Source: a virus. Taken from it: 25,100 nucleotides of DNA. A program made the position numbers and the translations under genes. Where the stretch lies: positions 1 to 25,100 of IMG/VR virus record IMGVR_UViG_3300024262_000222; one strand, 5' to 3'. Below the pieces are notes generated by a model that saw nothing but the letters and a program-made list of their open reading frames with translations, was not told the DNA's origin and searched no databases. Shown here in pieces: positions 10,366-25,100 of the stretch (position 1 is the stretch's first letter; every line of letters begins with the position of its first letter).

Positions 10366-10545
10366 TTATTTAACTTTTTTCTTACGTGTGTTTAAAGGTA
10401 GGTATCCTTTAGATACCCCAGCGTCTGAATCCGCGTAGCCCAAGGGCACTTGATATGATCCCGCGTTTGACGACATAGTCGCCTCCGCGTGTAGTTTGCG
10501 GAGCTGCTCAATAAGTTTACGTATGTTGGGTGTCTCCCAGCTCAT
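10366..10545 (-). CDS. 59-residue small protein
   Basis: ATG at 10545 with AAGGTAGG upstream, stop TAA at 10366. The protein begins MSWETPNIRKLIEQLRKLHAEA, then SSNAGSYQVPLGYADSD, and ends in a basic tail (TRKKKVK). I do not recognise a family. Residues 11-21 (LIEQLRKLHAE) resemble the leader seen in three other small proteins of this window, so it may be a packaged or processed virion component. It is followed by a strong terminator. Coding character, Shine-Dalgarno and snug placement make it a real gene despite its size. Confidence 0.7.
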   Translation of the reverse strand: MSWETPNIRKLIEQLRKLHAEATMSSNAGSYQVPLGYADSDAGVSKGYLPLNTRKKKVK

Positions 10546-10583: not shown

Positions 10584-11267
10584 CTACTGTGGGGACTTCT
10601 GTAAGATAGCGGCTATATCGTCTTCCGACATGTCCCCCAGCTTCTCTACGCGATCCGCTATATCCTGTATCAGACTCTTAACCCACTCGTCGAAAGCCGA
10701 TTCGTCTGAGGCCTCGTATATTAGGTGCGCCAGCAGCGCGGCCTTTCCTACTGATTTTATAGCAGTCTCGGCGGCGAAGTGCTGAGCGAGTGCGCCCGCT
10801 GTAAGGTGGGCTATGCCTCCCATGACAAGCGTTCCAGCCACAGTCATAGCTACGGCCTTTACGACCGCCTTTATGGCCTTCTTCTCGTGAGAGGAAATGC
10901 TCTCCCTACGGGCCAACTTAGCTACTGCCTTACCGGCCATTTTGAATTCTTTTACTTCGTGCTTGATGGTGCCTAGAGCGTGAGCCGCCTTAGATCTCAA
11001 GGACTTGCTGGCTTTAGCCCCGACTTCTTTCCTGAACTCTTTGTTCGCTACCAGCTTAGCGGCGCCCTTTGGCAGCGCTTTTATACTTTTAGCTGTGCCT
11101 ACGATCTTATCTTTTATCGCGGCCTTAGCTTTGCGTTTCATTCCGCCTATTTGGCGCCACTTACCAAACACCATAAACCAACCCTTACCCGGAGGCCTAG
11201 GTACAGACGACTTCTCTTCGAGTTCGAATCGTACAGATTCCAATAGAGTGGCGGTCCGGTAGTTCAT
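10584..11267 (-). CDS. Lys/Ala-rich virion-type protein with a hydrophobic segment and possible capsid-targeting leader
   Basis: A 227-residue protein of unknown function. I chose ATG at 11267 (MNYRTATLLESVRFELEEK) over a TTG at 11285 because the ATG puts its leader in exact register with that of the gene at 23319-23591. No Shine-Dalgarno is visible, and it starts 22 bases after the RNR stop, so it may depend on coupling. After the leader come an aromatic stretch (GKGWFMVFGKWRQIGG), a strongly basic helix region (about 45-135, many Lys and Ala) and a hydrophobic segment at about 141-170 (AVAMTVAGTLVMGGIAHLTA). An acidic C-terminus ends it (DIADRVEKLGDMSEDDIAAI). A basic protein with a removable leader would suit an internal head protein, while the hydrophobic segment could suit membrane passage. 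Both are inference. Confidence 0.75.
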   Translation of the reverse strand: MNYRTATLLESVRFELEEKSSVPRPPGKGWFMVFGKWRQIGGMKRKAKAAIKDKIVGTAKSIKALPKGAAKLVANKEFRKEVGAKASKSLRSKAAHALGTIKHEVKEFKMAGKAVAKLARRESISSHEKKAIKAVVKAVAMTVAGTLVMGGIAHLTAGALAQHFAAETAIKSVGKAALLAHLIYEASDESAFDEWVKSLIQDIADRVEKLGDMSEDDIAAILQKSPQ

Positions 11268-11289
11268 TATCGTATGGTAGCGCAAATAA

Positions 11290-13599
11290 TCAGATTTCGC
11301 ACTTACCGCCTGCGCAACTTAATTCACCGGTTAAATTAGTACCGTCATCCTCTTCCACCATCTTAGTGTAGTCCACTTTAGTATAGTGTTTCAACAACAT
11401 GTTCCACTTCACTTCGTCCGCCTCCGTGGAGATCACTTCTCTAGGCGCGAAAGCGTAATCTTTATCCCCTGTGTGGGGTAGGAAGGAGATACCCGAAAAG
11501 TCCTCTTTATTATTCCAAACATAGTCTGACACGTCATCCCACTCATCTGGTCGCACTATCACGGTATTACTAACATTATGGCAAGCGCCAGGACTTCTAT
11601 CCGGGTCCGCAGTGCCTGGTTTTACCCAATTATCTTGAGTGCTTTTAACTGTTTTTAGGAACTCTACAGCGCCAAAATCATCTAAAATAGCTGCGCCTTC
11701 TGGAGCGGCAATTGGGAACTCGATTACCCAATCTCCACCTTTTGGTTTTTTTTGGCACATGTGTGGATTTACACTCCTAAAGTACTGAAACACAGGCTCC
11801 AGCTCATTAGCCGTTACGCGCCTTATATAGCGCCTTCCTGGGTGCGCGTGTATACCCGACCCTACGCACCCCAGCTCCAGGGAAGACGTCCCTGCGGGCT
11901 TTACGCACGTTGTGCGGGACGCTGGACGCACTCCTAGCTTAGCGGCCATTCTGGCGTTCTCGGCTATGACCACGGCTGCGGCGTTGCGTTGGTACTCGGG
12001 GTTCAGCGCGATACCAGGGGAGTCCATCATTCCCGTCATCGAGACACCCAATAGGGCCTCGCGCTCCGCTATCAGTTCAGATACCCAGCCCAGATACGGG
12101 AAGTCCGTGTAGGCCGTCTGTAGCGTTCCTATACACGCTGCGGCTTTAGCAGCTGCGTACATATCTTCTGGGGTATCGAAAGCCGCTGCGTTCATCTCCG
12201 TTAAGTTACAAAATGCTACACCAGTATGAGTATCCCCTATCTTGACCTTAGGTATGAACATCCCGGTCTCTCGCTTAGCTTCGATAGCTAGTAGGAGGGC
12301 CTCGTCGATGGTCAGCACAGGGTTCAAATTTATCTCTACACACGGGTTGAAACCGTAGTCATAGTTATCGGTAAATACGAATCCGGGCTCTCCGAACTCT
12401 TTTATGTACTTGAAGATCCGGTTGAACTGACGCTTCTTTATATCGCTGCGCATTAGTACAGCAGAGTTGTTAGAGTTAGCGCGCCACGGGTGTATGTCGA
12501 ACCAGTTACCGGTCTTAGCGGCCATCATCTCCCCATCCTCTAAGGAGAAAAGAGCTATTGTGGCTGAGCGTCTGATACCACCGGATAGTACTGCGTCCGC
12601 CGCTAAGCACATAATGTCATAGCACTCTATAGGTCGGAGCTGCCTACCTTGAGCTAGGTTTAGGCGCTCACGTATAGCCTCCAGAGAGGTTTTTAACCCT
12701 ACGTGACCTGGGGCTTTACCGCCCGAAGTTTTAAGAGGCGTGCCCTCGGGTCGTATCTTGCTGTAGTTGAATTCTATGAAGTACCCCTTAGTGTAGGAGT
12801 TAAGTAGGGTCGTCAAAGCGTTAGCCCAACCCTCTATGGTGTCCACTATAGTGTAGTGGCGGACCATGCGGGCGTCCACGTGCTTCAGCGCCGGTAGTTT
12901 CTCTACGTGGTCGTACTGAATGGAGTAGCCCACGCCGCAACCGCACAGTAGTAGGTATAGAGCATCTCCGAAGGCTCTAAGCTTATCGATGTGCATGAAC
13001 GAACAGTTGTACTGGCGTGCGTTCACAGTCTCTATAGCGGAACCGGCGAACTGCATAGATCGCATGGACGGTAGAACCTTCTTAGCTCTGACCATGTCGA
13101 AGGCTTCAGTTATGTCTTCACGGGCTTCGGGAAACTTCTTTAAGTGCATGTTTTCCACACGCGCTACTGTCTCCTCGTATACCTCTCTGCGCTTTTCTTC
13201 TGGGAGGTAGCGTGAGTATTTACCGGGGTGGATATAGTCTGAGATAGCTAGAGGGTCCGGAGCTAATCTATTAGCTCTCAACCCCTCTCGCTTGGACCTG
13301 TACAAAATGTAGGCTTTAGCTACGTCCGTACATCCGGTCTCCATTAAAGAAGTTTCTACAAAGTCTTGAATGACTTCTACAGGTACATCCTTCTCCCCGT
13401 ACCTTAGTAGAAGTTTGGCTTTTACTAGCCTAGCCATTTGAACTAAGAAGTGATCTTCTATGGTCTGCCCTACCTCGTCGAACGCAGCACGTACTGCGCT
13501 TTCGATCTTGGTTATGCTAAATTCTTGAGTGTTTTTACCACCCCGCTTAAGGACGCGTAAACGTCCCTCTATCCCAATCTCGTCTGAGAATAGGTTCAT
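11290..13599 (-). CDS. nrdJ: class II (adenosylcobalamin-dependent) ribonucleotide reductase, monomeric type
   Basis: A 769-residue enzyme converting ribonucleotides to deoxyribonucleotides for phage DNA synthesis. Residues about 14-108 form an ATP-cone (RVLKRGG, FSITKIESAVRAAF, YILYRSKREGLR), pointing to allosteric control by dATP/ATP. Active-site residues can be placed against the Lactobacillus RTPR: C199 (YNCSF) and C464 (FCNLTEMN) as the reducing pair, N418/C420/E422 (NPCVE) as the thiyl centre, and C762/C767 (SCAGGKC) as the C-terminal shuttle. KPAGTSSLELG and GIHAHPGRRYIRRV are also typical of class II. No small subunit gene is present, as class II needs none. Between C420 and C464 there are 44 residues against 11 in RTPR, an insertion of about 33. 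ATG at 13599 follows AAGGAG. Finding it among tail genes is unusual. It should work without oxygen but needs host B12. Confidence 0.92.
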   Translation of the reverse strand: MNLFSDEIGIEGRLRVLKRGGKNTQEFSITKIESAVRAAFDEVGQTIEDHFLVQMARLVKAKLLLRYGEKDVPVEVIQDFVETSLMETGCTDVAKAYILYRSKREGLRANRLAPDPLAISDYIHPGKYSRYLPEEKRREVYEETVARVENMHLKKFPEAREDITEAFDMVRAKKVLPSMRSMQFAGSAIETVNARQYNCSFMHIDKLRAFGDALYLLLCGCGVGYSIQYDHVEKLPALKHVDARMVRHYTIVDTIEGWANALTTLLNSYTKGYFIEFNYSKIRPEGTPLKTSGGKAPGHVGLKTSLEAIRERLNLAQGRQLRPIECYDIMCLAADAVLSGGIRRSATIALFSLEDGEMMAAKTGNWFDIHPWRANSNNSAVLMRSDIKKRQFNRIFKYIKEFGEPGFVFTDNYDYGFNPCVEINLNPVLTIDEALLLAIEAKRETGMFIPKVKIGDTHTGVAFCNLTEMNAAAFDTPEDMYAAAKAAACIGTLQTAYTDFPYLGWVSELIAEREALLGVSMTGMMDSPGIALNPEYQRNAAAVVIAENARMAAKLGVRPASRTTCVKPAGTSSLELGCVGSGIHAHPGRRYIRRVTANELEPVFQYFRSVNPHMCQKKPKGGDWVIEFPIAAPEGAAILDDFGAVEFLKTVKSTQDNWVKPGTADPDRSPGACHNVSNTVIVRPDEWDDVSDYVWNNKEDFSGISFLPHTGDKDYAFAPREVISTEADEVKWNMLLKHYTKVDYTKMVEEDDGTNLTGELSCAGGKCEI

Positions 13600-13626
13600 G
13601 GTTTATCTCTCCTTGAGCGTAATGGC

Positions 13627-14331
13627 CTAGCCTATGGGGGATAGACTAATTTCTTCTATCATTTCTGGTTGAATATCTAATTCGGCTATAGAAACATCGC
13701 CCGCTTTAGCGTCGAAGTCTCCACCGGATTTGAATCGTGTGGGTATACAGTCGTAAAGCATCCACGCGCGCGCGGGCACGTGGGCGGCTACGTCAGCTGG
13801 ACCAAAGGATCCAACAGCTACTTGAGCAGCTATACGCGCTATACCTGCGGCTGAGTTTATACCCGTCCCCCCGCTTACAGCTCCCCGACTTTGTGCGGCT
13901 CCTGCGGTTATCAGACCACCCGCTATACCAGCAGCGGCTAGTCCTGGATACCTAGAAAAGAAGTGAATCAACATTAGGTTTCTGCGGGGTGTTACTCCGC
14001 CTACGCTGCCTACTTGCACTCCGCCTACCTTAACCCCAGACGTGTTGCCAGTCAACGCCGACATAGCCCACTTGTAGAAATCTGAATCCCAAAAAGTTAC
14101 ACCTCTAGTTAAGGTCATAACATCTATGTCAGCTTTCTTAACGACCTTCTTGCGAAACATAGCGTTGCCCTCTGTGATGTCGTACATCTCAAAGGTCATA
14201 CCTGGCGCGGTTATACTACTAAACCCCGCTAGAGGGTTAAATATGGGCAGGGCTAGTCCTTCTATAGGTGCTACGTCTAATAACCAAAAGGAGTTAACTT
14301 GTAAGTAGTCGCTGAATAATGATCTAGCCAT
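13627..14331 (-). CDS. second tail tube-like protein with a Gly/Ala-rich insertion
   Basis: A 234-residue paralogue of the tail tube protein encoded just before it. Shared landmarks are MAR-L---DYL at the start, then AGFSSITAPGMTFEMYDITEG, DIDVMTLTRGV with WDSDFYKWAM, and the end P-R-K-GGD-DAKAGDVSIAELDIQPE. These are marks of the gp19-type tube family. Between about residues 128 and 186 it carries a Gly/Ala-rich, partly hydrophobic stretch (LAAAGIAGGLITAGAAQSRG and on) where the paralogue has a short polar loop. It could form a specialised ring at the tube end, or a minor tube protein. ATG at 14331 has GAGG upstream. A terminator separates it from tube 1, so it should be made in smaller amount. 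Confidence 0.75.
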   Translation of the reverse strand: MARSLFSDYLQVNSFWLLDVAPIEGLALPIFNPLAGFSSITAPGMTFEMYDITEGNAMFRKKVVKKADIDVMTLTRGVTFWDSDFYKWAMSALTGNTSGVKVGGVQVGSVGGVTPRRNLMLIHFFSRYPGLAAAGIAGGLITAGAAQSRGAVSGGTGINSAAGIARIAAQVAVGSFGPADVAAHVPARAWMLYDCIPTRFKSGGDFDAKAGDVSIAELDIQPEMIEEISLSPIG

Positions 14332-14379
14332 GCAGGAGCCTCATAGTAGCAACGTATGACGTACTACTGAAATGAAAAA

Positions 14380-14399
14380 GGGAGGACATTAGTCCTCCC
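14380..14399 (-). terminator. rho-independent terminator after the tail tube gene
   Basis: Perfect 8-bp stem GGGAGGAC/GTCCTCCC with a 4-base loop, followed on the minus strand by TTTTT (plus 14375-14379). It lies just after the tail tube stop and before the second tube gene, so the sheath-tube transcript can end here and downstream genes depend on read-through or an unseen promoter. Confidence 0.92.
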
Positions 14400-14426
14400 A
14401 TCTTTCTAGTGGTGTTTGATTAGTGT

Positions 14427-15011
14427 TTAGCTTGGGATTGCGTGCTCTTCGACCTCGAAGTGCTCGTACGCTAAATCAAGTTCCATGATAGAAATCTCAG
14501 AAGCGGTAGCATCTAGGTCTCCGGCCACCTTGTGACGAATTGGGAAAGCCTCTTTAACATGGTAAGACCTTGCAGCTGTAATATCCGCAGGCTTGATGTT
14601 AGTTCGGTTTGGTAGTCCGCCGTTTGTAGGTTGATCACGAACCAAAGAGTTGTCTCGGTGGTAGTGCTTGATAGTTAGGTCAGCGCGGTACTGCGCTTCG
14701 TTAGATCCTAGAGGACCGCCCTCAAGGACAACGCGTAACCAGCCCCAGAAGGAGCTATCCTGACGAGCCACACCTCTAGAGAGGGTGATGTCGGATACAG
14801 TAGGGTTACCAGGATACTTACGTGTGTAGATCATGGTCCCCTCCTTGTATTCTACGGCCTCGACCGTAGCTTCTGGAGTAGTGACGTTGGAAAAACCCGC
14901 GTCTGGCCTACCGGTAGGATTCAGGTCTATGATAGGACTATTCTGCGCATCATCGATTGATACGTGGAATCGCATTGAGTGGAGATAATCTGTATTTAGT
15001 GGGCGTGCCAT
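14427..15011 (-). CDS. tail tube protein (gp19-like)
   Basis: A 194-residue protein directly after the sheath module, followed by a strong terminator as is common for the abundant tube protein. It forms the inner tube through which DNA passes. Landmarks: MARPLNTDYLHSMRFHVSID, then GFSNVTTPEATVEAVEYKEG (about 39-58), SDITLSRGVARQDSSFWGWL (about 73-92), and the C-terminal KVAGDLDATASEISIMELDL (about 161-180). The same order of blocks occurs in T4 gp19-type tubes. ATG at 15011 with GAGG upstream. It pairs with the paralogue at 13627-14331. Confidence 0.87.
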   Translation of the reverse strand: MARPLNTDYLHSMRFHVSIDDAQNSPIIDLNPTGRPDAGFSNVTTPEATVEAVEYKEGTMIYTRKYPGNPTVSDITLSRGVARQDSSFWGWLRVVLEGGPLGSNEAQYRADLTIKHYHRDNSLVRDQPTNGGLPNRTNIKPADITAARSYHVKEAFPIRHKVAGDLDATASEISIMELDLAYEHFEVEEHAIPS

Positions 15012-15065
15012 CTTAAACCTCGTTCTTTAGGGTGCTGTACTACTGTGTGTCTAAGCTGCTAGGGC

Positions 15066-15416
15066 TTAGGTTGCTACGCCCGCAGCGTCGCGCCAGATAG
15101 TACCGTCGCTCCAGTTAGGCGCAGCGTCATCCGTATTAAAGATAAACGTGAACGCTGGAACTGCGGTAGCAGCTGGCCTTGCGGCATTGGTGTACGAAGG
15201 TGGGGTATCCCCAAATCCGCCTACGACGTCATCTCCGGCTTCCTTAGTAAAAACTAGGGATACGTCGCCAGAAACGATTAGAGCTTTTAGGCTCTCGTCT
15301 CCGACGATGTCGGCCATTCCGCGACGGGTTTCGAGTACACCGCCAGGATTCAGCACCGTGCCATAAGCAGAGAGGTGGATCTGGTCGGAACCAATATTAG
15401 TAATTTTAACAAGCAT
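15066..15416 (-). CDS. small protein between sheath and tube, unknown
   Basis: A 116-residue protein from ATG at 15416, 20 bases after the sheath stop with AGGAG between them. The first half (KITNIGSDQIHLSAYGTVLN, GVLETRRGMADIVGDESLKAL) reads as a small beta-rich domain with a VSLVFTKEAG end. The second half is Gly/Pro/Ala-rich, ending in FTFIFNTDDAAPNWSDGTIWRD, which resembles decoration or tip domains of phage structural proteins. I do not recognise the family. Co-transcription with sheath and tube suggests a virion component. Confidence 0.7.
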   Translation of the reverse strand: MLVKITNIGSDQIHLSAYGTVLNPGGVLETRRGMADIVGDESLKALIVSGDVSLVFTKEAGDDVVGGFGDTPPSYTNAARPAATAVPAFTFIFNTDDAAPNWSDGTIWRDAAGVAT

Positions 15417-15436
15417 GGGTTATCTCCTACTGGGAC

Positions 15437-17944
15437 TTATGCAGATGTCTGCTGAAAACGGAATCGAACAAACTCAGCGGGTGTGTTAGCGGCTACACCG
15501 ATATCGATGATGACTTGTCCGGCAGCGATGGAGCTAGCATCGTTGTTAGAGTCGTCTACAATTACAAAGAACGCTTCGGAGGGTGTAGCACCTGCGAACA
15601 TACCTTCATTGTATAGATTAGTTAAGAAACCGGATAGCTGCGCTTTGATACGAGCCCAAAGTGCGGGACCGTTGTTCTCGAACACAATCCAATGGGTTGA
15701 GTTGAAAACAGACTTCTCCATGAACATGAACAGACGACGTACGTTAACGTAACGCCATTCCGATTCGGTGGCCATGGTACGAACACCCCAGACAGCTAGT
15801 CCGGTCTGAGGGGAAGAAATAAGAGGGTTGACCTTGTTAGGGTAAACAAAGTCTCGCTCACCTTGTGTAGGATCTATCTCTAGACCCGTTAAGAAGCGCA
15901 GAGCGCCGTCAACTGTTCCGCCTGGAGCCTTAGCAACGTTCTTGTTAGAATCGGTGCGGGCGTAAATACCAGCGATGTGTCCTAGAGCAGGCATGACCTT
16001 AGGGCGGTTATCCGCTAGAGGGTCAGCTACTCGAACATGCGGCCAGTATAGAGCTGCGAACTTGCTGTAACGACCTAGGTCGTAACGGATCCAGTCCACT
16101 GCCTCTTGTGCGCTAGAGCCTACTGGAGGCTGAAGAATTGCGAAGCGATCTCCACCAGAAGGTAGAGCTGCTCTGCTATCTACGTAGTCCAAAATGTCGC
16201 CTGTGATTACGAGGTCACCTACGAAGTCTGGAATAGCGAGCTGCATTAGCTCCTCTACACGATCAAGAGCGTACATACCCTCACTAGACGCGGCTAGCGC
16301 TGGAGCTGTGAACTCATTTCGACCGTAAGTACCAGCACCGAACGTACCGTTAGATCCGCCAGCAAACTGCTCAGTGTGAGTAGTCTCTGTGGGAGCCTGA
16401 GTGTAAGCTGCGGTTACTAGAGACGCGCCGTTAAGGGGTCCTGATGTTTTGAAATCCAGGGCTCCTGTGGTGTAGTTTACAGTATTGTTTCCCGTAGGAT
16501 CTATCCAGCCTATTAGGTTACCAGAACCGTCGTCTGTGATGGTCTTGGCTACGCCGGTAGCGTCCTGCATGGAGATGGTAATAGAACGAGAAGCTACAGG
16601 AGCCTCGCCTAGAGAAGTTACAATAGTTTGACCTGTGGCGGATTCGTCACCACCAGCTAGTACCAACGACCTTACGATTCCGTTTAGTTGATTAGGAGCC
16701 TCGTCGCCAGCAGGCTCGTTGACGTTGATGTAATCAGACAATTCATTGATTACGTCTGGCATGTATTGAGCGTCGGTAGAATCGTTTAAGCTGAGCTGCT
16801 CAAAAGTTTCTACGATACTGAATAGGCCGGACGAGGTATTTAGAAGTAATACGTTTACTTGGTACCTAGAGTAGGACGCGGTAGCTACGGTGAAGAAGTC
16901 TTGATCACCTGTGATCTGAACTCGCATGTTATTGGCCCAGGTACCCTTAGAGATAGGGTCCATGTTCCAAGCACTGATGCTGTAATTAGCCAGTATTCTA
17001 GCGTCATCGTGAGGAGCTGCGGTGGGATCAAAAGAGTAGGCACCTGTGACGTAATCGATAGCGCCAGGAGCCGAAAGAGCGCCCCCTGTTACAGGTAGAA
17101 CTCCAGCACCGTCGTCAGTTACAGCTAGGGTAGCTGTAGCTGGGGTGATGTCCATGGTCACGGCGATACCGTCACCGCCTATGACAATAGACTCCGCTCC
17201 TGCGAATTCTACGGAACCGATACCGGTTCTGTGGTCGAACACAACAACTGTACCAGCGCCACTAGTCGTAGTAGACACACTACCTGAGGTAGGCTTGACT
17301 AGTAGTAGAGTAGTTGGGGTAGCGCCATCGAAGTCCCAGTTAAGGGTAAGGGTACCAGGAACAAGAGCGTCAAGCTCTCCGTCGATAGCTGGAATAGAAG
17401 TAGGATCTACGCGGAACTCGTAAATTTGAGTAGCGCCTGCACCGTCTAGTACTAGAGGAGTAGTTCCGTCACGAGCCATCAAAGGGTCGGCCGCAGCAGG
17501 AGTACCCGCCCCGCGCCAAGACACTGTAAAGCTCCCAGCAACAATAGGGCTGGCGCCGGAGTTAACCTTAAGAGAGGTAGTAACATCGGTCTTGGAGAAG
17601 GTCGTAAGAGCGCCGTCGCCTACTTCGATCTCTTGATCCGTCTGTAGACTGTCAACTAGGGCGTCGGCAGCCACGGCGTCACTAGGTACAACGCGAACGA
17701 CGAACGCGCGGCGTCCTCCGTTGTTGAAGTACGCCGCCATTGTAAGGGTTAGGTGAGATTCAGCCACTTGAGGGCCGAAGGTGCGGATAAACCCTGGGTA
17801 CGAGGTTACAAGGGTCGCGATGTTCTCGGGACCTCTATCTGTATAACCGATAGTACCTAGGTTGGACGTCGAAACGGCCTGGATAACCTGGACCTGACTT
17901 GGAACCTCTTCGATGAAGACTCCGGGGCTCAATAATTCTGCCAT
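15437..17944 (-). CDS. contractile tail sheath protein
   Basis: An 835-residue sheath subunit. The N-terminal LSPGVFIEEVPS (5-16) and the following TIGYTDRGPENIATLVTSYP are hallmarks of the family and form the start of the domain that contacts the tube. The C-terminal 200 residues contain the conserved core: GLAVWGVRTMATESEWRYVN, then VRRLFMFMEKSVFNSTHWIV, and LSGFLTNLYNEGMFAG. Residues about 100-480 are a long beta-rich, Asp/Thr/Gly-rich region with repeat-like units (TVNYTTGALDF, IDYVTGAYSFDPTA) that makes it longer than T4 gp18 (659). This part probably forms surface domains. ATG at 17944 uses AGGAG located inside the last codons of the upstream endonuclease. Its first four codons encode MAEL, like the endonuclease. 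Confidence 0.95.
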   Translation of the reverse strand: MAELLSPGVFIEEVPSQVQVIQAVSTSNLGTIGYTDRGPENIATLVTSYPGFIRTFGPQVAESHLTLTMAAYFNNGGRRAFVVRVVPSDAVAADALVDSLQTDQEIEVGDGALTTFSKTDVTTSLKVNSGASPIVAGSFTVSWRGAGTPAAADPLMARDGTTPLVLDGAGATQIYEFRVDPTSIPAIDGELDALVPGTLTLNWDFDGATPTTLLLVKPTSGSVSTTTSGAGTVVVFDHRTGIGSVEFAGAESIVIGGDGIAVTMDITPATATLAVTDDGAGVLPVTGGALSAPGAIDYVTGAYSFDPTAAPHDDARILANYSISAWNMDPISKGTWANNMRVQITGDQDFFTVATASYSRYQVNVLLLNTSSGLFSIVETFEQLSLNDSTDAQYMPDVINELSDYINVNEPAGDEAPNQLNGIVRSLVLAGGDESATGQTIVTSLGEAPVASRSITISMQDATGVAKTITDDGSGNLIGWIDPTGNNTVNYTTGALDFKTSGPLNGASLVTAAYTQAPTETTHTEQFAGGSNGTFGAGTYGRNEFTAPALAASSEGMYALDRVEELMQLAIPDFVGDLVITGDILDYVDSRAALPSGGDRFAILQPPVGSSAQEAVDWIRYDLGRYSKFAALYWPHVRVADPLADNRPKVMPALGHIAGIYARTDSNKNVAKAPGGTVDGALRFLTGLEIDPTQGERDFVYPNKVNPLISSPQTGLAVWGVRTMATESEWRYVNVRRLFMFMEKSVFNSTHWIVFENNGPALWARIKAQLSGFLTNLYNEGMFAGATPSEAFFVIVDDSNNDASSIAAGQVIIDIGVAANTPAEFVRFRFQQTSA

Positions 17945-17945
17945 T

Positions 17946-18473
17946 TTAGTTGACTCCTGCTAGTAGGGTAGAGTAGGTTCTTAAGGATCTAAGATCCTCG
18001 CACATGCTGCCTAGAAGATCCACCTCGTTAGGGAACCTCCTCAACCAACCTTTCCTACCTATAAGGTTGTCGCTAGCGTAATTTAGTAAATCCTTCCAGA
18101 TGGCGTAGTCTCTGGACTTCTTACTTTGAAGCGGATATTTATCGAAATGAGGTACAACGTAGTCTAATAGGTCTTGTGGTTTGCGTATTTGGAAGTTGCG
18201 AACAGGTTTACCTTTTAAACCAAGTCGAACTACAGATGGAGCGTTAATACTAAACTTCTTATTAGTTACGATTCCACAACCAAAGTACGAAGGGAGTCTA
18301 TCCAATACAGCAGTATCGTCCGCCCTAAGCGCTACTTGCAGACGTATGTCTAACTCAACACAAGCTACCGTGTTCCCACTAGAGGTTTTTTTGTTTCTGT
18401 GTTGCAGTCCTGCGTAGAAACAGCCCTCGCCGTCTACTAGTCCGGTAACCCACCAGCCGTTTAGTTCAGCCAT
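17946..18473 (-). CDS. LAGLIDADG homing endonuclease, single-motif type
   Basis: A 175-residue protein with one LAGLIDADG motif, WVTGLVDGEG at 8-17, followed by CFYAGLQHR. Further matches to the LAGLIDADG_1 group are VELDIRLQVALRADD (39-53) and PHFDKYPLQSKKSRDYAIWK (108-127). One motif implies a homodimer. ATG at 18473 has a strong AGGAGG, which overlaps the stop of the preceding Pro-Ala-rich gene. The first four codons encode MAEL, identical in protein and nearly in DNA to the sheath start just downstream. Its final codons carry the sheath ribosome binding site. It therefore seems to have landed at the sheath start without harming the sheath. I see no intron or intein boundaries. Confidence 0.85.
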   Translation of the reverse strand: MAELNGWWVTGLVDGEGCFYAGLQHRNKKTSSGNTVACVELDIRLQVALRADDTAVLDRLPSYFGCGIVTNKKFSINAPSVVRLGLKGKPVRNFQIRKPQDLLDYVVPHFDKYPLQSKKSRDYAIWKDLLNYASDNLIGRKGWLRRFPNEVDLLGSMCEDLRSLRTYSTLLAGVN

Positions 18474-18479
18474 ATCTTG

Positions 18480-18848
18480 TTACCTCCTGGTCCTTTTTTT
18501 TCTGGTCTTCTTGCTGTCGCCGTCCTCTTCAGGATCGCTTGGCATGTCTTCCATATCTTCGGACGCTTCTAGTTTAACGGGTTCTTCCGGCTCAAAAATA
18601 ACAGGCGCGGGTGCAGGAGCAGGGGCGGGCACAGGCGCGGGGGCGGGGGCGATAACAGGGGTAGGAGGGGAAAGCTCCATCCTGAATTTAGGTGGAACTA
18701 ACATATTCTTTTTAACATAACGAACTACGGAAGCACACCCTTCATCTTCGCGAGATAACTCAACATAACTCTTGGCTGCTACGACTGTCGAACCACTTGA
18801 GAGTGATAAGGGTAGCGGACCTCTTGTTTTATTGTAGTATCTGGGCAT
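18480..18848 (-). CDS. Pro-Ala-rich small protein before the sheath, unknown
   Basis: A 122-residue protein. Residues 1-52 (MPRYYNKTRGPLPLSLSSGS, then YVELSREDEGCASVVRYVKK) form a compact domain I cannot name. Residues about 60-83 are a Pro-Ala run (PAPAPVPAPAPAPAP), mirrored in DNA as GC-rich low-complexity sequence around 18600-18660. Next comes an acidic stretch (EASEDMEDMPSDPEEDGDS) and a basic end (KKTRKKRTRR). The layout, a domain on a stiff linker with a charged tail, suggests an assembly or tethering role. ATG at 18848 starts three bases after the tail-terminator stop; its stop is overlapped by the endonuclease ribosome binding site. Confidence 0.72.
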   Translation of the reverse strand: MPRYYNKTRGPLPLSLSSGSTVVAAKSYVELSREDEGCASVVRYVKKNMLVPPKFRMELSPPTPVIAPAPAPVPAPAPAPAPVIFEPEEPVKLEASEDMEDMPSDPEEDGDSKKTRKKRTRR

Positions 18849-18851
18849 AGT

Positions 18852-19628
18852 TTAAAGTACCTCGGTAGTAATTGTGGGAAGGCTTGTAACAGTATTGTGC
18901 TCCTCGGGATCCAATAGATCAAGCTCTCCTTCAATTCGTATCGTTACGGCAAATCCTATCACACGATCTGCCACTTCGGGAACCTCATCTAAATGACTAA
19001 TCGACTCTTGGAAGCAATCGTACGTTCTTCCGTCGCCTATAGAGTCGTTTAGGTATAGGTAGGAGTAGGGCTGAAATACGCGTAGGACAGCTTTTAGGAT
19101 AGCGTTGGCTTGATTCGTTTGACCCATCCCGCCTCTGTTACGAGCGAGAATAGAAATCGTATACGTTATATCGTAAGGCGCAGCTTGCTGTAATTGCTCC
19201 ACCTTGTCCCAGTTAACGAGAGCCGGAGCGTCTGGGTTTCCTGGATTTGAATCGACTGTAGTTTCTTGAGCTGTTACTGCGGGAGCGCGGTATTGTAAGG
19301 TACCAGGATGCCAACGATTCATCGTAGGAGCGATATCATCCCGTCGTATAGAAATAAGCGGATAATCGAATTTTTCTAAAACATCCTCAGGAAAAGCAAA
19401 TATTATGGGGACGCCTGGAAGCCCTGGACGCCCAACCCTACCTCGCACCAAAGGTATGTTTAGGAAATAGTTACTAGCTTGCTGCCCATTGGGGAACGTA
19501 ACTGTCTCCAAGGTAGCACCTAAAGTAGTAACGACTCCTTGGTCGAAACTACGTAGGTCTACCGTGCCGGTTCTAGCTCTACCCTCGATACGGTCTCGTA
19601 GAGCTTGGGTTGCTGCGTCGTCTGCCAA
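18852..19628 (-). CDS. probable tail terminator / sheath-stabiliser protein
   Basis: A 258-residue protein located between the neck genes and the sheath, the usual site of the protein that caps tube and sheath and joins tail to neck (T4 gp3/gp15 role). The segment APYDITYTISILARNRGGMG (about 156-175) followed by ILKAVLRVFQPY and, after 25 residues, VADRVIGFAVTIRIEGELDL has the alternating alpha/beta pattern of tail-terminator proteins. The N-terminal part (TLETVTFPNGQQASNYFLNI, GRVGRPGLPGVPIIFAFPED) I do not recognise. The start appears to be TTG at 19628: the next in-frame Met is beyond residue 100, and the TTG lies eight bases after the previous stop, so coupling is likely. Function is inferred from place and fold pattern. 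Confidence 0.6.
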   Translation of the reverse strand: MADDAATQALRDRIEGRARTGTVDLRSFDQGVVTTLGATLETVTFPNGQQASNYFLNIPLVRGRVGRPGLPGVPIIFAFPEDVLEKFDYPLISIRRDDIAPTMNRWHPGTLQYRAPAVTAQETTVDSNPGNPDAPALVNWDKVEQLQQAAPYDITYTISILARNRGGMGQTNQANAILKAVLRVFQPYSYLYLNDSIGDGRTYDCFQESISHLDEVPEVADRVIGFAVTIRIEGELDLLDPEEHNTVTSLPTITTEVL

Positions 19629-19636
19629 GTGAGGTA

Positions 19637-20188
19637 CTAGATAGCCTTAGCCATCTCCAGTACTTTGTTTGCGAAACCGCTGGTTTTAGCGGCTCCCATC
19701 CACATAGACACTTCGTTGTCCGAGGCATCTTCGCCGGGCATAGGAGGCATAGATCCGTCCTCTTCCATCTCGTCCGCCATAAGCATAATGAACTCTATAG
19801 CCATGTCCTCATCAGCGTTAAGCGATGTCGTAAGGCGCTCTAGGATGGAATCTAGGTATAGGTCGAAAGCGTCGTTTACGTCGGTCTCGTTGTCGTCGGC
19901 GTCCTCCGCCTCCATACCGTCCATCATCTCAAGTCGGATGCGGTCTAGTAAGTCTTTGGCGTCTTCCCCTATGGAGAAAGCTCCTTTAGATTCTGAGGAA
20001 TCTCCGGTCTCTAGAACAGATTTACCGCTGTGCTTGGACAGCTTCTTCTTGCTCAGGGCCTTCTCTTTTTTGCTAACGGACTTGCCGTACTTCTTGGGGT
20101 TTTGCTTATCCCAAGGAGCGGATTTAGCCTCTAGCTTGGCCTTTATTTGGCCTAGCAGTTCGGTGGTAGTTTCATTTAAAAGGTACAT
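19637..20188 (-). CDS. Lys-rich/acidic two-part protein with capsid-targeting-like leader
   Basis: A 183-residue protein of unknown family. The leader TTELLGQIKAKLEAKS (8-23) matches those of the genes at 10584-11267 and 23319-23591. Next is a very Lys-rich stretch (about 28-60: PKKYGKSVSKKEKALSKKK), then a strongly acidic helical C-terminus (about 75-165) with several Met. A basic segment behind a removable leader would suit a DNA-associated internal protein, while the acidic half resembles scaffold-like helices. ATG at 20188 with GAGG upstream; stop TAG at 19637, eight bases before the next start. Confidence 0.75.
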   Translation of the reverse strand: MYLLNETTTELLGQIKAKLEAKSAPWDKQNPKKYGKSVSKKEKALSKKKLSKHSGKSVLETGDSSESKGAFSIGEDAKDLLDRIRLEMMDGMEAEDADDNETDVNDAFDLYLDSILERLTTSLNADEDMAIEFIMLMADEMEEDGSMPPMPGEDASDNEVSMWMGAAKTSGFANKVLEMAKAI

Positions 20189-20202
20189 ACTGGGGTCCTC
20201 GG

Positions 20203-21015
20203 TTAGGGTCTAATTCCTAGTTTACGCTGGAAAGGCACGAATTTCCTGGCCTCGCCAGGTCGGATCTTGGATGCTGTATGGATCTTCTCCCATCGCTTCC
20301 AACCTGTAAAGGAAGCGTTTGTGAAAAGCATCTTTATTTTTGGGTTCCTAGCCATCCTCTTGATTCCGGAAGTCTTAAGATCTTGCAGGGTGGGCCTCCA
20401 GTGGGGGGCAGGTTTCTCTCCTAGTCCAAACTCTAGGCGGAAGGCCGCGTAACCTATATCAGGTACAGCCTTAGGAGTTTTTATTCTAGAGGTGCGGGAA
20501 GACGTTACGGCTTTACCTACGCTTAGTAAGGCTGGCCTCCACTTGTATTCATCTTTGCGGCGCGCCTTACGTATCTTAGTCACCGTATTACCGGCCACTT
20601 TCTTAGAGGTTACTATGGCCTTTGTACCGTCTGGCGTGAACGGTAATGTATCCATAGTCCACGGATTATGCTGCTCTAGTACTTGTACAGCTGGATCTGG
20701 CCTAGTTAGTCTAGGGCGAGATCTTACGTACAATAGTGTGTTAGGAGCATCTACTTTAGAGGTACCTACAGCTCCTGGATTAGAACGCACGGCGTAGGCG
20801 TAGTCGTTACCACCTACTGACACCTCTACTACATCCAATGAATTTCTGTACACAGCCTGGTCTGGGCCGTTGGGTAGGCGCTCTAGTAGACCTGCTTTGG
20901 TCTTCATAGCGGCCTCGTAAGCGAGGCGCTTACGTAACGCGCGCGTGCGCCTGGGCCACGACTTCGTTACAGCTACGGCGTTATGAAACGCTTGGTCTCC
21001 TTTGACGTAGAACAC
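20203..21015 (-). CDS. neck/tail-completion-like protein, basic
   Basis: A 270-residue, strongly basic protein in the connector block. Parts resemble the HK97 gp10-type tail-completion pattern: an N-terminal helix (RRTRALRKRLAYEAAMKTKA), then DYAYAVRSNPGAVG (about 77-90) and later YAAFRLEFGLGEKPAPHWRP (about 194-213), where such proteins have a 'YA..VE.GT...P..P..RP' signature. A head-to-tail joining role fits the location between neck genes and the tail terminator. GTG at 21015 overlaps the previous TAG by one base (TAGTG), with AAGGA upstream. The homology is suggestive only. Confidence 0.6.
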   Translation of the reverse strand: MFYVKGDQAFHNAVAVTKSWPRRTRALRKRLAYEAAMKTKAGLLERLPNGPDQAVYRNSLDVVEVSVGGNDYAYAVRSNPGAVGTSKVDAPNTLLYVRSRPRLTRPDPAVQVLEQHNPWTMDTLPFTPDGTKAIVTSKKVAGNTVTKIRKARRKDEYKWRPALLSVGKAVTSSRTSRIKTPKAVPDIGYAAFRLEFGLGEKPAPHWRPTLQDLKTSGIKRMARNPKIKMLFTNASFTGWKRWEKIHTASKIRPGEARKFVPFQRKLGIRP

Positions 21016-21464
21016 TACTCGTCGTCCTTCTTGAAGGATGCCTCTACTTCGCTGATAGCCTGGAATAGGGACTTAACCTCTGGTCCCATAATTTCCCGAA
21101 TAGTTAGGGCTCCGTTGTTGGACCGTATAGCGAAGGTAGGGTGTATGCCTGGTTGTCCCATGGGCTTCAGCTCCGCTAACATACGAACGTGCTCCTCGCA
21201 TACACCTATGATGCGGGAGCGGCCGGTTACCTGGATACCGTACTTAGAGTCGGCGCCGCACTTGAAGCACCATCTAGACAAGTCGGACACTGGACCGTCG
21301 TACTCGGGAAAGTCGCTCCCGCCCACAGGGCCCGCGCATCCGCGCTTAGCCAAGCACACGTCTCCGGGTATATTGCGGTCTCGGGCGCCCCAATATTTCT
21401 TGCAGGTGCTGCACACCACAGACAGTCCACCCTGAACAGCTAGTCCTATTTTTACTGGATCCAT
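21015..21464 (-). CDS. small protein with two zinc-finger-like cysteine sets
   Basis: A 149-residue protein. The first set is VCSTCKKYWGARD...DVCLAKRGCAGP (about 17-44), the second WCFKCGADSKYG...GVCEEHVRML (about 65-95), with CxxC paired to C-x5-C or CxxH. They could bind two zinc ions. Between them is GGSDFPEYDGPVSDLSR. The C-terminal 50 residues are helical and charged. I do not recognise the family; it lies inside the neck block and overlaps both neighbours (TAATG upstream, TAGTG downstream), so its amount is tied to theirs. An assembly factor or small structural protein is equally possible. Confidence 0.7.
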   Translation of the reverse strand: MDPVKIGLAVQGGLSVVCSTCKKYWGARDRNIPGDVCLAKRGCAGPVGGSDFPEYDGPVSDLSRWCFKCGADSKYGIQVTGRSRIIGVCEEHVRMLAELKPMGQPGIHPTFAIRSNNGALTIREIMGPEVKSLFQAISEVEASFKKDDE

Positions 21465-22078
21465 TAGTCGTTATCCATTCTACGCTCTGGTGAATACTCT
21501 GTGTTCCTTTTTAGTACACACTTAAATCCTACGAACCCGGCCTGGTCGAACAAGTGCCCGTCTTCGTCTACTTTTGTGATGTTAAAGAAGTAACCGGACC
21601 CAGGTATGTCTTGCTCTGCTACTGAGTACTTCTTGTAGAAAGGCGTATTCCACAGGCGGACCACGTCGTCCTCTGTCGGAATAGGAGCCCCTACGGATTC
21701 TATGTTAGCGCGAGGTATCCACAGCGTGGCGTCCCACTTGACGTGAAAACCTTGCTCCGTAGCTTCGGTGTCAGCTTCGGGATACTCTACAAAGGCTTTG
21801 AACTTGTAAGATCCGTCGAACACGCGCTCAATAGCCTCGTCGTACAACGGGTCCCGCGTAGACGTGTCTAAGTTAAAGTGGAAGAACTCTATCTCCACGC
21901 CAGCTGCGTTTACGTGTTCTGCGGCCCAGCAGTCGAATATGCTCTGCTCTGCGTCGCACAGACTTAGCTCGCAGCTACTCAAGGTAGCTGGGATAATAAG
22001 ACAGTCTATGGGCCCTATATCGCAACCTTTTGGTAGACAGTCTAGTAGAGGGGTACCTTTAATTTTACAACCGGACAT
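21464..22078 (-). CDS. neck/connector-region protein with Cys-rich N-terminus
   Basis: A 204-residue protein. The first 50 residues hold eight cysteines (CKIKGTPLLDCLPKGC, then DC, SSCELSLC, DC). The rest looks beta-rich: VEIEFFHFNLDTSTRDPLYDE, KFKAFVEYPEAD, HVKWDATLWIPRANIES, VRLWNTPFYKKYSV. This resembles head-closure or adaptor proteins in general but I cannot match a named family. It follows the connector-like gene and precedes the zinc-finger gene. ATG at 22078, four bases after the previous stop, with GGGG upstream. Confidence 0.68.
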   Translation of the reverse strand: MSGCKIKGTPLLDCLPKGCDIGPIDCLIIPATLSSCELSLCDAEQSIFDCWAAEHVNAAGVEIEFFHFNLDTSTRDPLYDEAIERVFDGSYKFKAFVEYPEADTEATEQGFHVKWDATLWIPRANIESVGAPIPTEDDVVRLWNTPFYKKYSVAEQDIPGSGYFFNITKVDEDGHLFDQAGFVGFKCVLKRNTEYSPERRMDND

Positions 22079-22081
22079 AAA

Positions 22082-22825
22082 TTACCCCGCTATGAAGTGC
22101 ATAGGCATCGCGCTATCGGCGATCTCCTCTTCTAGTTTTTCCATCTCTTCCCTAGCCTCATCTAGTAGGGTTAATCCGTCCATGGTCGAAGACCCTTGGG
22201 CGGTTGGGAAGGCATCGTACTTAGATCGTATTCTTCCTACAATCTTCTTGGTCCACGCAAGTGCGTAGCGCTTAATTAGATCGTGGTCACGCTCGTTAAG
22301 CTGCTGGATGTCGAAGTTATTTGTCTTGTACTCCACCAGTACGTTGGCGGTGTGCTTAGGGAGTGGGAAGATATTAAGCGTGCGACCGTATTGATTCCAG
22401 TCGGGCTCCGCACCTAGAACACGCTTGGCCATCTCAGTGTACTGACGAACCTGAACTAGGGTAGAGTACAGACCCCCAGAGTCTGGGGCGGCGAACACGT
22501 CATATGGAACTGCGTCGTCTATGAGTCCGAATGGGTTGAAGATCAACGAGAAGTCGAACGGGTTCACAGTAAATACAACATCCGTTACTGTGTCTACGTC
22601 ATCCGGTAAGCAGTAAGCGGTAACGCCGTCCTGCACAGGTAGAACCAATACTTTGGTAAGACCTTTCTTAGCTGTGAACCATCGGATGGCCGTCTCAATG
22701 ACGTCACACATATGCTCTTGCGTAACTTCTACCTTTAGAAAGGGCGCGCCCATTTGGCGAAGGATCCACTCCTTCACCTGACCGTCGTCCATTAACTGGG
22801 AGTTATGCGCGAATTCAGTAGCCAC
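22082..22825 (-). CDS. neck protein / head-tail connector-like virion protein
   Basis: A 247-residue protein. The N-terminal QVKEWILRQMGAPFLKVEVT and EHMCDVIETAIRWFTAKKGL (about 16-58) match a pattern I associate with neck proteins of T4-related myoviruses (the gp13 position). A beta-rich middle follows, with PDDVDTVTDVVFTVNPFD and LNIFPLPKHTANVLVEYKTN, then a long C-terminal helix (RDHDLIKRYALAWTKKIVGR, and EEMEKLEEEIAD near the end). It heads the connector block. The start is GTG at 22825 without a visible Shine-Dalgarno, so the exact start is uncertain; ATG at codon 12 is another choice. Confidence 0.68.
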   Translation of the reverse strand: MATEFAHNSQLMDDGQVKEWILRQMGAPFLKVEVTQEHMCDVIETAIRWFTAKKGLTKVLVLPVQDGVTAYCLPDDVDTVTDVVFTVNPFDFSLIFNPFGLIDDAVPYDVFAAPDSGGLYSTLVQVRQYTEMAKRVLGAEPDWNQYGRTLNIFPLPKHTANVLVEYKTNNFDIQQLNERDHDLIKRYALAWTKKIVGRIRSKYDAFPTAQGSSTMDGLTLLDEAREEMEKLEEEIADSAMPMHFIAG

Positions 22826-22866
22826 TTTCGCATTTTAGCGCGTTTCGGGCTATTCGGGAAGATGTT

Positions 22867-23280
22867 CTACAGGGCTATAGATATGTCACCCATAGCATCA
22901 GCCTCTCCTTGGGGGTTACGCTCCACAGGGCTGCTGTAATCGTCGTCTAGGGCCTCCTCCTCGGAGGTCAAGAGTGCCGCGTCTTCTACTAGGGAGGGCG
23001 CTGACGGGGCTGCTAGCTCCTCACGTAGGGCCTCTACCGCCTCTTTGACAGTAGTGAGTGCGTTCACTGCTCTGTCGAACTCTTGTATGACTAGATCTGT
23101 CAACGCTAGAATTTTATAACCGCGTTCGTCGAGGTCGTCCTTGGGCACGGATTTGGGAGTGGCCTCTACGGTCAGGGCCTCGCGCGCGGGCTCGTATGCA
23201 GGCGCGGGCGGGTCTACGCGCGTAGGCGTGACCGGTTCTAAATCTGCAAGCTCGGCGAGTAGGTCATCTGTAGATGTCAT
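22867..23280 (-). CDS. acidic Pro/Ala/Glu-rich small protein, unknown
   Basis: A 137-residue acidic protein. ATG at 23280 is preferred to an in-frame TTG one codon earlier because AGGA lies seven bases before it. The N-terminus (TSTDDLLAELADLEPVTPTR) loosely resembles the leader found in other small genes here. Residues about 25-50 are Pro/Ala/Glu-rich and likely disordered. Residues about 52-90 (GYKILALTDLVIQEFDRAVN, ALTTVKEAVEALREELA) form a helix with coiled-coil spacing. The C-terminus is disordered and acidic. It could be a core, scaffold or chaperone-like factor; nothing identifies it. Confidence 0.65.
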   Translation of the reverse strand: MTSTDDLLAELADLEPVTPTRVDPPAPAYEPAREALTVEATPKSVPKDDLDERGYKILALTDLVIQEFDRAVNALTTVKEAVEALREELAAPSAPSLVEDAALLTSEEEALDDDYSSPVERNPQGEADAMGDISIAL

Positions 23281-23318
23281 CAAAACATCCTACATAAAAA
23301 CTATCCGCTACACAACAG

Positions 23319-23591
23319 TTAGGTTAAGTCGATTAACTCTTGGCGGAGCTTATCTGCCTTCTTCTTGCCGATGCGGTCGGATAGATCGTTCCACGGAGCT
23401 TTACCTGTTTTGTGAATGGTCCACAGGTAATGGCGTATGTTAGGCCAATCTGGGTTATCGTGCCTAGTCTTAGCGTACTTCGTGTGCAGCTTGAGCGCCG
23501 CGCCCTTATACTCGGGGCCAGCGGCGTACGGATCCTTGCCTTCTAAGGTTTCCCGAACAGCTTCAAGTAGTTCTAATGTCGCTTTATTCAT
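23319..23591 (-). CDS. small basic protein with capsid-targeting-like leader
   Basis: A 90-residue protein, ATG at 23591 with AAGGA upstream. Its leader MNKATLELLEAVRETLEGKD shares T5, L8, L9, E10, V12, R13, L16, E17 and K19 with the gene at 10584-11267 at identical positions. The rest is basic and aromatic: YKGAALKLHTKYAKTRHDNP, DWPNIRHYLWTIHKTGKAPW, ending in a Lys-rich helix. No family recognised. It is one of several short genes in tandem after the capsid gene. A packaged internal protein is the favoured inference. Confidence 0.72.
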   Translation of the reverse strand: MNKATLELLEAVRETLEGKDPYAAGPEYKGAALKLHTKYAKTRHDNPDWPNIRHYLWTIHKTGKAPWNDLSDRIGKKKADKLRQELIDLT

Positions 23592-23606
23592 GGAGAGTGT
23601 CCTTAT

Positions 23607-23825
23607 CTAGCCTAAGCGCTGTAGGGCCTTCATAGCCTGTAGTAAGTGGTCTACTACGTCTTTGTAAGCGGCTTTACGGGTAGGGTTGCGAGGTCTTCCG
23701 TACTTCTTACCGAGCTGTATATCACCCGCGAGTTCGTTGATAGTACCCCAAAGCTTGTCGGCGCTAGCCTTCTCGGAGTCTTCTGGGGACTCCAGTAGGG
23801 ACTCCATGCGTTCGCGTACCGACAT
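23607..23825 (-). CDS. small protein, unknown
   Basis: A 72-residue protein. ATG at 23825 overlaps the preceding stop (TAATG). The first 14 residues, MSVRERMESLLESP, contain an LLE reminiscent of the leaders of nearby genes, though the match is short. The remainder is a mixed helix (KLWGTINELAGDIQLGKKYG, then AAYKDVVDHLLQAMKALQRL) with a basic centre. No family recognised. Confidence 0.65.
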   Translation of the reverse strand: MSVRERMESLLESPEDSEKASADKLWGTINELAGDIQLGKKYGRPRNPTRKAAYKDVVDHLLQAMKALQRLG

Positions 23826-24088
23826 TATTTCATCGCCGATAGAGCTAGGAGGTCCTGCTGGATGTTGTATAGCCTAGACCCTATGTCGGAGCCGCCAACA
23901 GCCCCTTTTTTTCCGTATACACCTAAGGATTTTAGGTGCTTATTAAGCTGTTGGGCGAGGTCTTGTGCTTGTAGGATGTGCTTGTACATCTTCTTAGCTA
24001 CAGCAGCAGCTTCGGGAGCCCCCTCTTGTAACTCCGAGCCTAACCGCGCAGATACAGATTCTAGGGCAGATACAATTTCGGGGGTCAT
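23825..24088 (-). CDS. small helical protein, unknown, leader-like N-terminus
   Basis: An 87-residue protein, ATG at 24088 with AGGA upstream. Its N-terminus MTPEIVSALESVSARLGSEL has L9, E10, S11, V12 and L16 in the register of the shared leader, followed by a possible cleavage region ELQEGAPEA. Helices follow (KKMYKHILQAQDLAQQLNKH), then a Gly-rich hinge and a short C-terminal helix. No family recognised. Confidence 0.68.
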   Translation of the reverse strand: MTPEIVSALESVSARLGSELQEGAPEAAAVAKKMYKHILQAQDLAQQLNKHLKSLGVYGKKGAVGGSDIGSRLYNIQQDLLALSAMK

Positions 24089-24123: not shown

Positions 24124-24510
24124 CTAAAATCCCTTACCACACAGCTGGCAGGTACCTTCTTTCTCTGCGTTCATATTACTAGTCCATTCAACAGTATGGG
24201 GGCAGTGAAGTCTTAAGTCGTGAAGCTTTTCGTAGATGATCCCTATTCTAGCGTTAGCCTTGGCTAGGCTAGCTCGGGCCTTGGCCATTTCTTTCTTTAT
24301 GTAGGACTCATCGTAAGACTCTATGAGGTTATAGCGAGTATCGTGCTGTTCATGCAGCTCCCGCAAAAGTGAACCAGCTAAATAGTGACATCCGTGTGGT
24401 CCGGGATAGCAGTGGGAGGTCTTATCTCCGATAGGCTCGCTACATACACCACAGTGGTTGGTGGTGTACCAGGACTTAACTCGTAACTTGGGTTTGGGTT
24501 TGTAATCCAT
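24124..24510 (-). CDS. Cys/His-rich (zinc-binding-like) small protein
   Basis: A 128-residue protein. N-terminal Cys/His set NHCGVCSEPIGDKTSHCYPG with PHGCH (about 18-42), a central helix with coiled-coil character (SYIKKEMAKARASLAKANAR), and a C-terminal set LHCPH...GTCQLCGKGF. The two Cys/His ends could bind zinc, either as separate knuckles or brought together by the helix. ATG at 24510 has no good Shine-Dalgarno, and upstream lies the 25-bp palindrome at 24532-24556, so it may be regulated. It is the first clear gene after the capsid terminator. Function unknown. Confidence 0.7.
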   Translation of the reverse strand: MDYKPKPKLRVKSWYTTNHCGVCSEPIGDKTSHCYPGPHGCHYLAGSLLRELHEQHDTRYNLIESYDESYIKKEMAKARASLAKANARIGIIYEKLHDLRLHCPHTVEWTSNMNAEKEGTCQLCGKGF

Positions 24511-24843: not shown

Positions 24844-25100
24844 TTACAGATTCTGAATGCGTACTTGGCCATAGAACTCGGATCTTAAAAGTTTTTTGGC
24901 ATACCTTGTGCGGAGACCCTTGCGGAACGAGAAGTCGTTCGGATCAAGGAAGGTCGGAGTAACCTGTAGAGGGATGTATGGAGCCCATACGTAACCTGCA
25001 TCGAGGTAGCTACCGCCCTTAAGGCCGATTAGCATCTGGTCGCGGCTGAAGAACGGATCTTCGTACACAAGCCATTTGTTGCTAAGGGTACCAGTTTTGT
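24844..25100 (-). CDS. major capsid protein, T4 gp23-type (C-terminal part only)
   Basis: The last 85 codons or so of a gene running in from the right edge. The visible end includes TGTLSNKWLVYEDPFFSRDQ, then DAGYVWAPYIPLQVTPTFLD, PNDFSFRKGLRTRYAKKLLR and the stop TAA at 24844. The 'APYIPLQ-TPT--DP-DF--RKG--TRYAKK' block is a hallmark of gp23-like HK97-fold capsid proteins of T4-related myoviruses. No true start is in the window: GTG at 25068 is an internal Val. A strong terminator follows. The T4-type capsid implies a prohead protease, which supports the leader-peptide idea discussed for the small genes. Confidence 0.9.
   Translation of the reverse strand, partial: KTGTLSNKWLVYEDPFFSRDQMLIGLKGGSYLDAGYVWAPYIPLQVTPTFLDPNDFSFRKGLRTRYAKKLLRSEFYGQVRIQNL

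Follow-up and report, generated by a model that had tools for sequence, protein, structure and literature searches.

A shared N-terminal leader on unrelated proteins of uncultured T4-like phages: a candidate capsid-targeting sequence

The locus and its leader-bearing genes

The virus record IMGVR_UViG_3300024262_000222 of IMG/VR holds a fragment of 25,100 bases (referred to here as the window) in which three open reading frames (ORFs) carry a common N-terminal peptide, the leader, that is the subject of this study. The minus strand of the window encodes the structural block of a contractile-tailed phage, including the C-terminus of the capsid protein, a neck adaptor (PHROG 211), sheath, tube, baseplate hub and tape measure. 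Proteins that are carried in phage heads and injected have mostly been found through proteomics of isolates, and the close relatives of the window phage are uncultured. An earlier note had described the leaders and proposed that they are capsid-targeting propeptides. The motifs that it gave for the proteins starting at 11267, 23591 and 20188 are exact, and translation of the minus strand gives MNYRTATLLESVRFELEEKS, MNKATLELLEAVRETLEGKD and, at residues 8–23 of the 20188 protein, MYLLNETTTELLGQIKAKLEAKS. The leader of the 20188 protein has three extra residues; the codons ahead of its Asn are ATG TAC CTT TTA, and no usable start codon places it in register with the other two. The best pair of N-termini in the window scored 35 BLOSUM units; shuffled N-termini averaged 20.8, and 2 of 300 shuffles reached 35. 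The evidence for a leader from the window by itself is modest, and the relatives are decisive.

The bodies of the three proteins differ. Family searches with the body of the 11267 protein gave no match, and a single-sequence, all-helical model of this protein was of low confidence and was not used. Relatives of the body of the 23591 protein were looked for and none were found. The description of the mature parts as mostly basic applies to these two proteins, but the 20188 protein combines a basic linker with an acidic C-terminal domain. A gene for a class II (B12-dependent) ribonucleotide reductase (11290–13599) is located within the tail module and adjoins a leader-bearing ORF.

Table 1. Leader-related features of the window and leader-bearing ORFs of the relative G001
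Feature	Coordinates	Strand	Description
Leader 1, MNYRTATLLESVRFELEEKS	11208..11267	-	N-terminus of ORF 10584-11267; translation and profile
Leader-bearing ORF 1	10584..11267	-	227 aa; basic, helical body without known family
Leader 2, (L)NETTTELLGQIKAKLEAKS	20120..20179	-	Residues 4-23 of the 20188 ORF; helix 6-22 in the model
Leader-bearing ORF 2	19637..20188	-	Leader, then a disordered linker, another leader-like helix (75-90) and a conserved domain of helices (104-182)
Second leader-like helix inside ORF 2, residues 75-90, within EDAKDLLDRIRLEMMDGM	19919..19966	-	Profile scan and model
Leader 3, MNKATLELLEAVRETLEGKD	23532..23591	-	N-terminus of ORF 23319-23591
Leader-bearing ORF 3	23319..23591	-	90 aa; basic body
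Borderline leader, MTPEIVSALESVSARLGSEL	24029..24088	-	N-terminus of ORF 23825-24088; 8.2 bits with the leader profile
gp23-like major capsid protein, C-terminal fragment	24844..25100	-	PHROG 138, E 3.8e-10
G001 leader ORFs	88382 MNRELNRLLESVRAELAEG; 13529 MNRAINHLLEQVLAELSEA; 13112 MNRELNRLLEDIRRELGEA; 133892 MNRELNAKLEEVRSILEGA; 113209 MNREINERLDDVRALLESF	both

Leaders in related genomes

The main comparison genome was the syntenic 145-kb relative L003 (handle G001), whose adaptor is 54% identical to that of the window, and a further set of 80 related loci was gathered through the G001 capsid. The records compared are fragments, and genes were called simply as the longest ORFs. A profile based solely on the window's three leaders was run across all predicted G001 proteins. 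Five of the six top scores among 43,769 positions were at start codons, the candidate starts numbering 544 (hypergeometric P 1.7e-9). This was the profile check that the earlier note had proposed, and it placed most of the top matches at start codons. The leader ORFs of G001 are unlinked, lie on both strands and are tens of kilobases apart. G001 also has a shorter, related version, K-I-x-x-C-x-x-I-L-(x)-E-A, at 106211, 106774 and 115398; a regular expression for it had six matches in G001, all of them N-terminal, and zero in the remaining records, with some 170,000 residues covered in total. The same profile separated the weaker candidates of the window. The 24088 protein keeps L9, E10, S11, V12 and L16, as the earlier note had stated, but its score is borderline (Table 1), and the proteins starting at 10545 and 23280, also put forward as candidates, scored about -20 and -21 bits and were rejected. 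The 23825 protein scored -24 bits and was likewise rejected as a leader carrier. The G001 proteins at gene positions equivalent to the rejected candidates are without a leader.

The relative G008 contains three consecutive genes with unrelated bodies and one identical 19-residue N-terminus, MNKRINRLLEGIRRELGEA. The DNA of these copies is near-identical from the ATG to GAGGC and divergent beyond, and the identity of the peptides ends at LGE-A (MNKRINRLLEGIRRELGE-A). A six-frame search of 38 further relatives gave 11 distinct matches, nine of them N-terminal; in G043 the ATG precedes the match by a few codons. BLAST comparison of the bodies past residue 20 showed no similarity among them except for evident orthologues and two pairs of paralogues. 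Overall, the shared N-terminal leader is real, and it is carried as a module on at least 14 unrelated bodies. Searches for family names gave one match among these bodies, that of the G001 113209 protein to PHROG 2859 (unknown function).

The capsids in the phage collection searched that are closest to the window clade, at about 35–37% identity, belong to two unannotated huge-phage assemblies, and a search of these two phages for leaders found none. More distant capsid matches are the gp23-like capsids of Bacillus, Listeria and cyanobacterial phages. The exact DNA pattern of the window-type leader had zero matches in viral contigs. Two matches to the L003-type DNA pattern, in L066/L069 and L071, begin with MNRE, have other reading contexts and lack the rest of the motif, and they were set aside.

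Several observations were made beside the leaders. Two G001 bodies contain HExxH (VHEVTH in the 114018 protein and AHEAAH in the 115398 protein), a motif that, on reading of the sequence, would be in keeping with zinc peptidases. The neighbouring G001 ORFs 89917–91434 and 91478–92215 have a different common N-terminal motif (RRLMGVAPRPLGPW / RRLMGLEPRPMGPW), unlike the leader. Three ORFs of G005 (18723–21284, 32431–34560 and 36004–36462) have the common N-terminus MAVI(T/K)NLT.., probably a repeated structural domain and not a leader. A leader-like peptide, MNRSVNEIFEDVKKTLADHFGIGKYKK, is located at the extreme C-terminus of a 411-residue open frame in G038 (24377–24424) and G039 (115696–115743), by chance or as a C-terminal version.

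Selection and likeness within genomes

Among the window leaders 83% of synonymous sites differ as opposed to 42% of non-synonymous sites, and among the G001 leaders the values are 68% and 38%. Synonymous divergence far exceeds non-synonymous divergence, which points to constraint at the protein level, and a DNA- or RNA-level element was rejected on account of the near-saturated synonymous sites. The G008 copies show a synonymous difference of 0.25 and a non-synonymous difference of 0; these recent DNA copies indicate that gene conversion or duplication contributes too. Leaders are closer to each other within one genome than between genomes (label permutation p 0.0004), a trend from which G029 departs. 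The 20188-type proteins of the window and of G008 have leaders that lie nearer to the others in their respective genomes than to any foreign cargo leader, despite the presence of body orthologues elsewhere. Such likeness would fit a targeting signal that is read by one genome-specific partner.

The 20188 protein family

Homologues of the 20188 protein are present in about 25 relatives and, where synteny is readable, are located between genes matching 20203–21015 and 18852–19628. In the alignment most of them consist of a leader, a linker that ranges from nearly absent to about 70 residues, and an acidic, conserved domain of helices. The AlphaFold model of the 20188 protein, made with the family alignment, has the leader as a helix followed by a disordered linker, a further helix and a confident helical domain (residue ranges in Table 1). 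In this protein and in the G032 homologue (L178) a second leader-like helix follows the first (LLDRIRLEM / ILDRIRMEL). About 18 homologues have a clear leader and five a diverged one (e.g., MDERVVEGLSKVRKALNET). A fold search with the modelled 20188 protein in viral and PDB libraries gave no significant match.

Protease, capsid and cleavage sites

The T4-type capsid gene that the earlier note had reported next to the leader genes is real, though incomplete, as the record ends inside it. In relatives the gene directly upstream of the capsid is that of a fusion protein, a head-maturation protease joined to a scaffold-like helical region (PHROG 207, E 4.7e-42). This protease, which had been expected upstream of the capsid gene, is found there in the relatives; in the window phage that position lies beyond the end of the record. 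The protease matches the T4 gp21 structure 5jbl (E 7e-10), and its GELDHP and SSRGYGS, which we take to hold the catalytic His and Ser, align with gp21. A gp21-type protease was found at 70 loci of the relatives, and the capsid of a relative matches gp23 (E 1e-27). All capsid variants listed keep an (L/M/I)-x-E about 20–25 residues ahead of a conserved PNLIANE, which is plausibly the place of maturation cleavage.

A site of the type (L/I)-x-E-(G/A/S) is present at residues 13–22 in 16 of 38 distinct leaders, compared with 2.4 in shuffles and 1% of body windows, in a set where the leaders partly share descent and the site statistics are not independent. That the leader copies the N-terminal propeptide of the capsid itself was considered and rejected, the profile having failed to single out this region when seven capsids were scanned. 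In its scaffold half the fusion (e.g., L003 5641–7257) has a conserved helix, roughly [SN]xxxLKxK[VL]ExVRxEL..[KR]R, that holds the most leader-like alignment column (602). Mimicry of this helix by the leader was set aside as a lead only: the column mean of 1.0 (-3.1 for the next) was reached by 10 of 300 profiles when these were fully permuted and by 37 of 300 when amphipathicity was preserved, and the likeness is not significant against the latter control.

Other genes of the structural block

The tandem ORFs 13627–14331 and 14427–15011 of the window are tail-tube-like paralogues, each matching PHROG 4542. The ORFs 7663–8667 and 17946–18473, located between structural genes, appear homing-endonuclease-like on reading of the sequence, and a homologue of the latter occupies the equivalent place in L003 (14127–14684). 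A long ORF of L003 (72–3170), upstream of the head genes, contains repeated blocks (..HNFVADGVVVHN.., ..HNFVADGLVVHN..) that appear intein-like when read in the same manner.

Interpretation

The leader is probably a capsid-targeting propeptide that docks on the prohead core, carries its cargo into the head, is cut in maturation and leaves the cargo to be ejected with the DNA. As the prohead core forms, the N-terminal amphipathic helix of each cargo, of about 18 residues (M-N-R-x-[LI]-N-x-L-L-E-x-[VI]-R-x-x-L-x-E), would dock on the core. In the gp21-like protease-scaffold fusion, the scaffold half is the probable docking site, and unrelated cargo would thus enter the head. A cut by the protease would be expected during maturation, at the (L/I)-x-E towards the leader's end; the cargo would then be free inside the head and could be ejected along with the DNA. 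The docking partner, packaging, cleavage and ejection are what we infer from the sequences. The proposal of the earlier note is supported in part and in kind: the N-terminal position, the unrelated carriers, the concerted evolution and the presence of the leader in phages of the gp21/gp23 type speak for it, but the cut sites are unsecured and two of the weaker candidates fail.

Several findings weigh against this explanation. Some relatives (G003, G005 and many of the six-frame records) are without any leader, though the records are fragments, and in the 20188 family the other homologues, which are more distant than those with a clear or diverged leader, have none that is recognisable. The protease gene of the window phage itself is outside the record. 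In the window (L/I)xE is present at the leader end in the 11267 protein only (LEE-K, residues 15–18); the corresponding residues are TLE-G in the 23591 leader and KLE-A in the 20188 leader, which makes cleavage in the window phage less certain. Several relatives lack the site too. The alternative cut at LLE, residues 8–10, suggested in the earlier note, has no counterpart in the 20188 protein and in many relatives.

The main rival explanation, which appears rather unlikely, is an uncleaved docking helix that would hold unrelated proteins at one shared complex, in the virion or in the infected cell, such as the neck, the tail, or the replication or transcription machinery. The start-codon enrichment, the identity in G008 and the likeness within genomes apply to it equally, and it would suit the location of the 20188 family among neck and tail genes, the internal second leader-like helix of this family and the two window leaders without a clear cut site. 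Against it speak (L/I)xE at the leader end being enriched far over body windows, the shared identity in G008 that stops directly past LGE-A, and a matching type of protease being encoded beside the capsid in relatives. It is still more doubtful that the leader is a piece of a 20188-type protein that spread by local duplication and gene conversion and acts, without targeting, as an N-terminus for solubility, oligomerisation or enhanced expression. The adjacent copies in G008, with their near-identical DNA, are of the kind that such spreading would leave, but the leaders of the window and G001 are synonymously saturated with the peptide still conserved, the carriers are tens of kilobases apart on both strands, and similarity within genomes without recent conversion requires a common partner. 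Chance likeness of generic amphipathic N-terminal helices, to which the modest significance in the window alone would be suited, is refuted by the independent start-codon enrichment in relatives and by the identical leaders on unrelated genes and can be given almost no weight.

If the leader is a capsid-targeting propeptide, the set of packaged and injected proteins could be obtained from sequence alone. A portable leader would allow injected proteins, including candidates for anti-restriction and host takeover, to be predicted across a large uncultured clade. Tentatively, this T4-like clade may possess a large cargo-loading system in which one portable helical tag serves up to about a dozen accessory proteins per genome and co-evolves with a genome-specific docking site, perhaps the conserved helix in the scaffold half of the protease fusion, to which the tag bears a likeness. 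Co-variation of leader and core across many genomes would make the binding partner of a capsid-targeting sequence testable.

Comparison with known systems

In T4, gp21 cuts after L/I-x-E, and the propeptides of internal proteins, 10–20 residues long, target these proteins to the core (PMC9026906, PMC5694885). As in T4 IPI, IPII, IPIII and Alt, a short N-terminal peptide is carried here by otherwise unrelated proteins (PMC9026906), and some of the leaders have L/I-x-E near the end; in T4 IPI the site is ITE-A at residues 17–20. A gp21-type protease and a gp23-type capsid are likewise present, here in the relatives. Unlike in T4, the carriers per genome are more numerous than the few internal proteins, the protease is fused to a scaffold-like region and packaging is a prediction. 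The N-terminus of IPI, the sole T4 propeptide compared, scored -37 bits with the leader profile. On the best reading the leader would be a new sequence class of capsid-targeting sequence that works like those of T4, without detectable similarity to IPI.

Studies of the giant phage SPN3US (phiKZ group) have reported two processed paralogues, gp53 and gp54, in which the first 15 residues are identical (PMC5694885). The leaders resemble these as a conserved N-terminus with x-x-E sites on diverged proteins, which in SPN3US are processed head proteins (PMC5694885). They differ in that gp53 and gp54 are paralogues of 34% identity, whereas the bodies here are unrelated, and both the cleavage motif and the sequence are different. 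In phage P1, residues at the N-terminus of DarB are enough to direct a reporter to the inside of the head (PMC9024508), the role that the leader is predicted to have here. The authors described no consensus among the Dar N-termini of P1 (PMC9024508), whereas in the present clade a consensus is evident across unrelated proteins.

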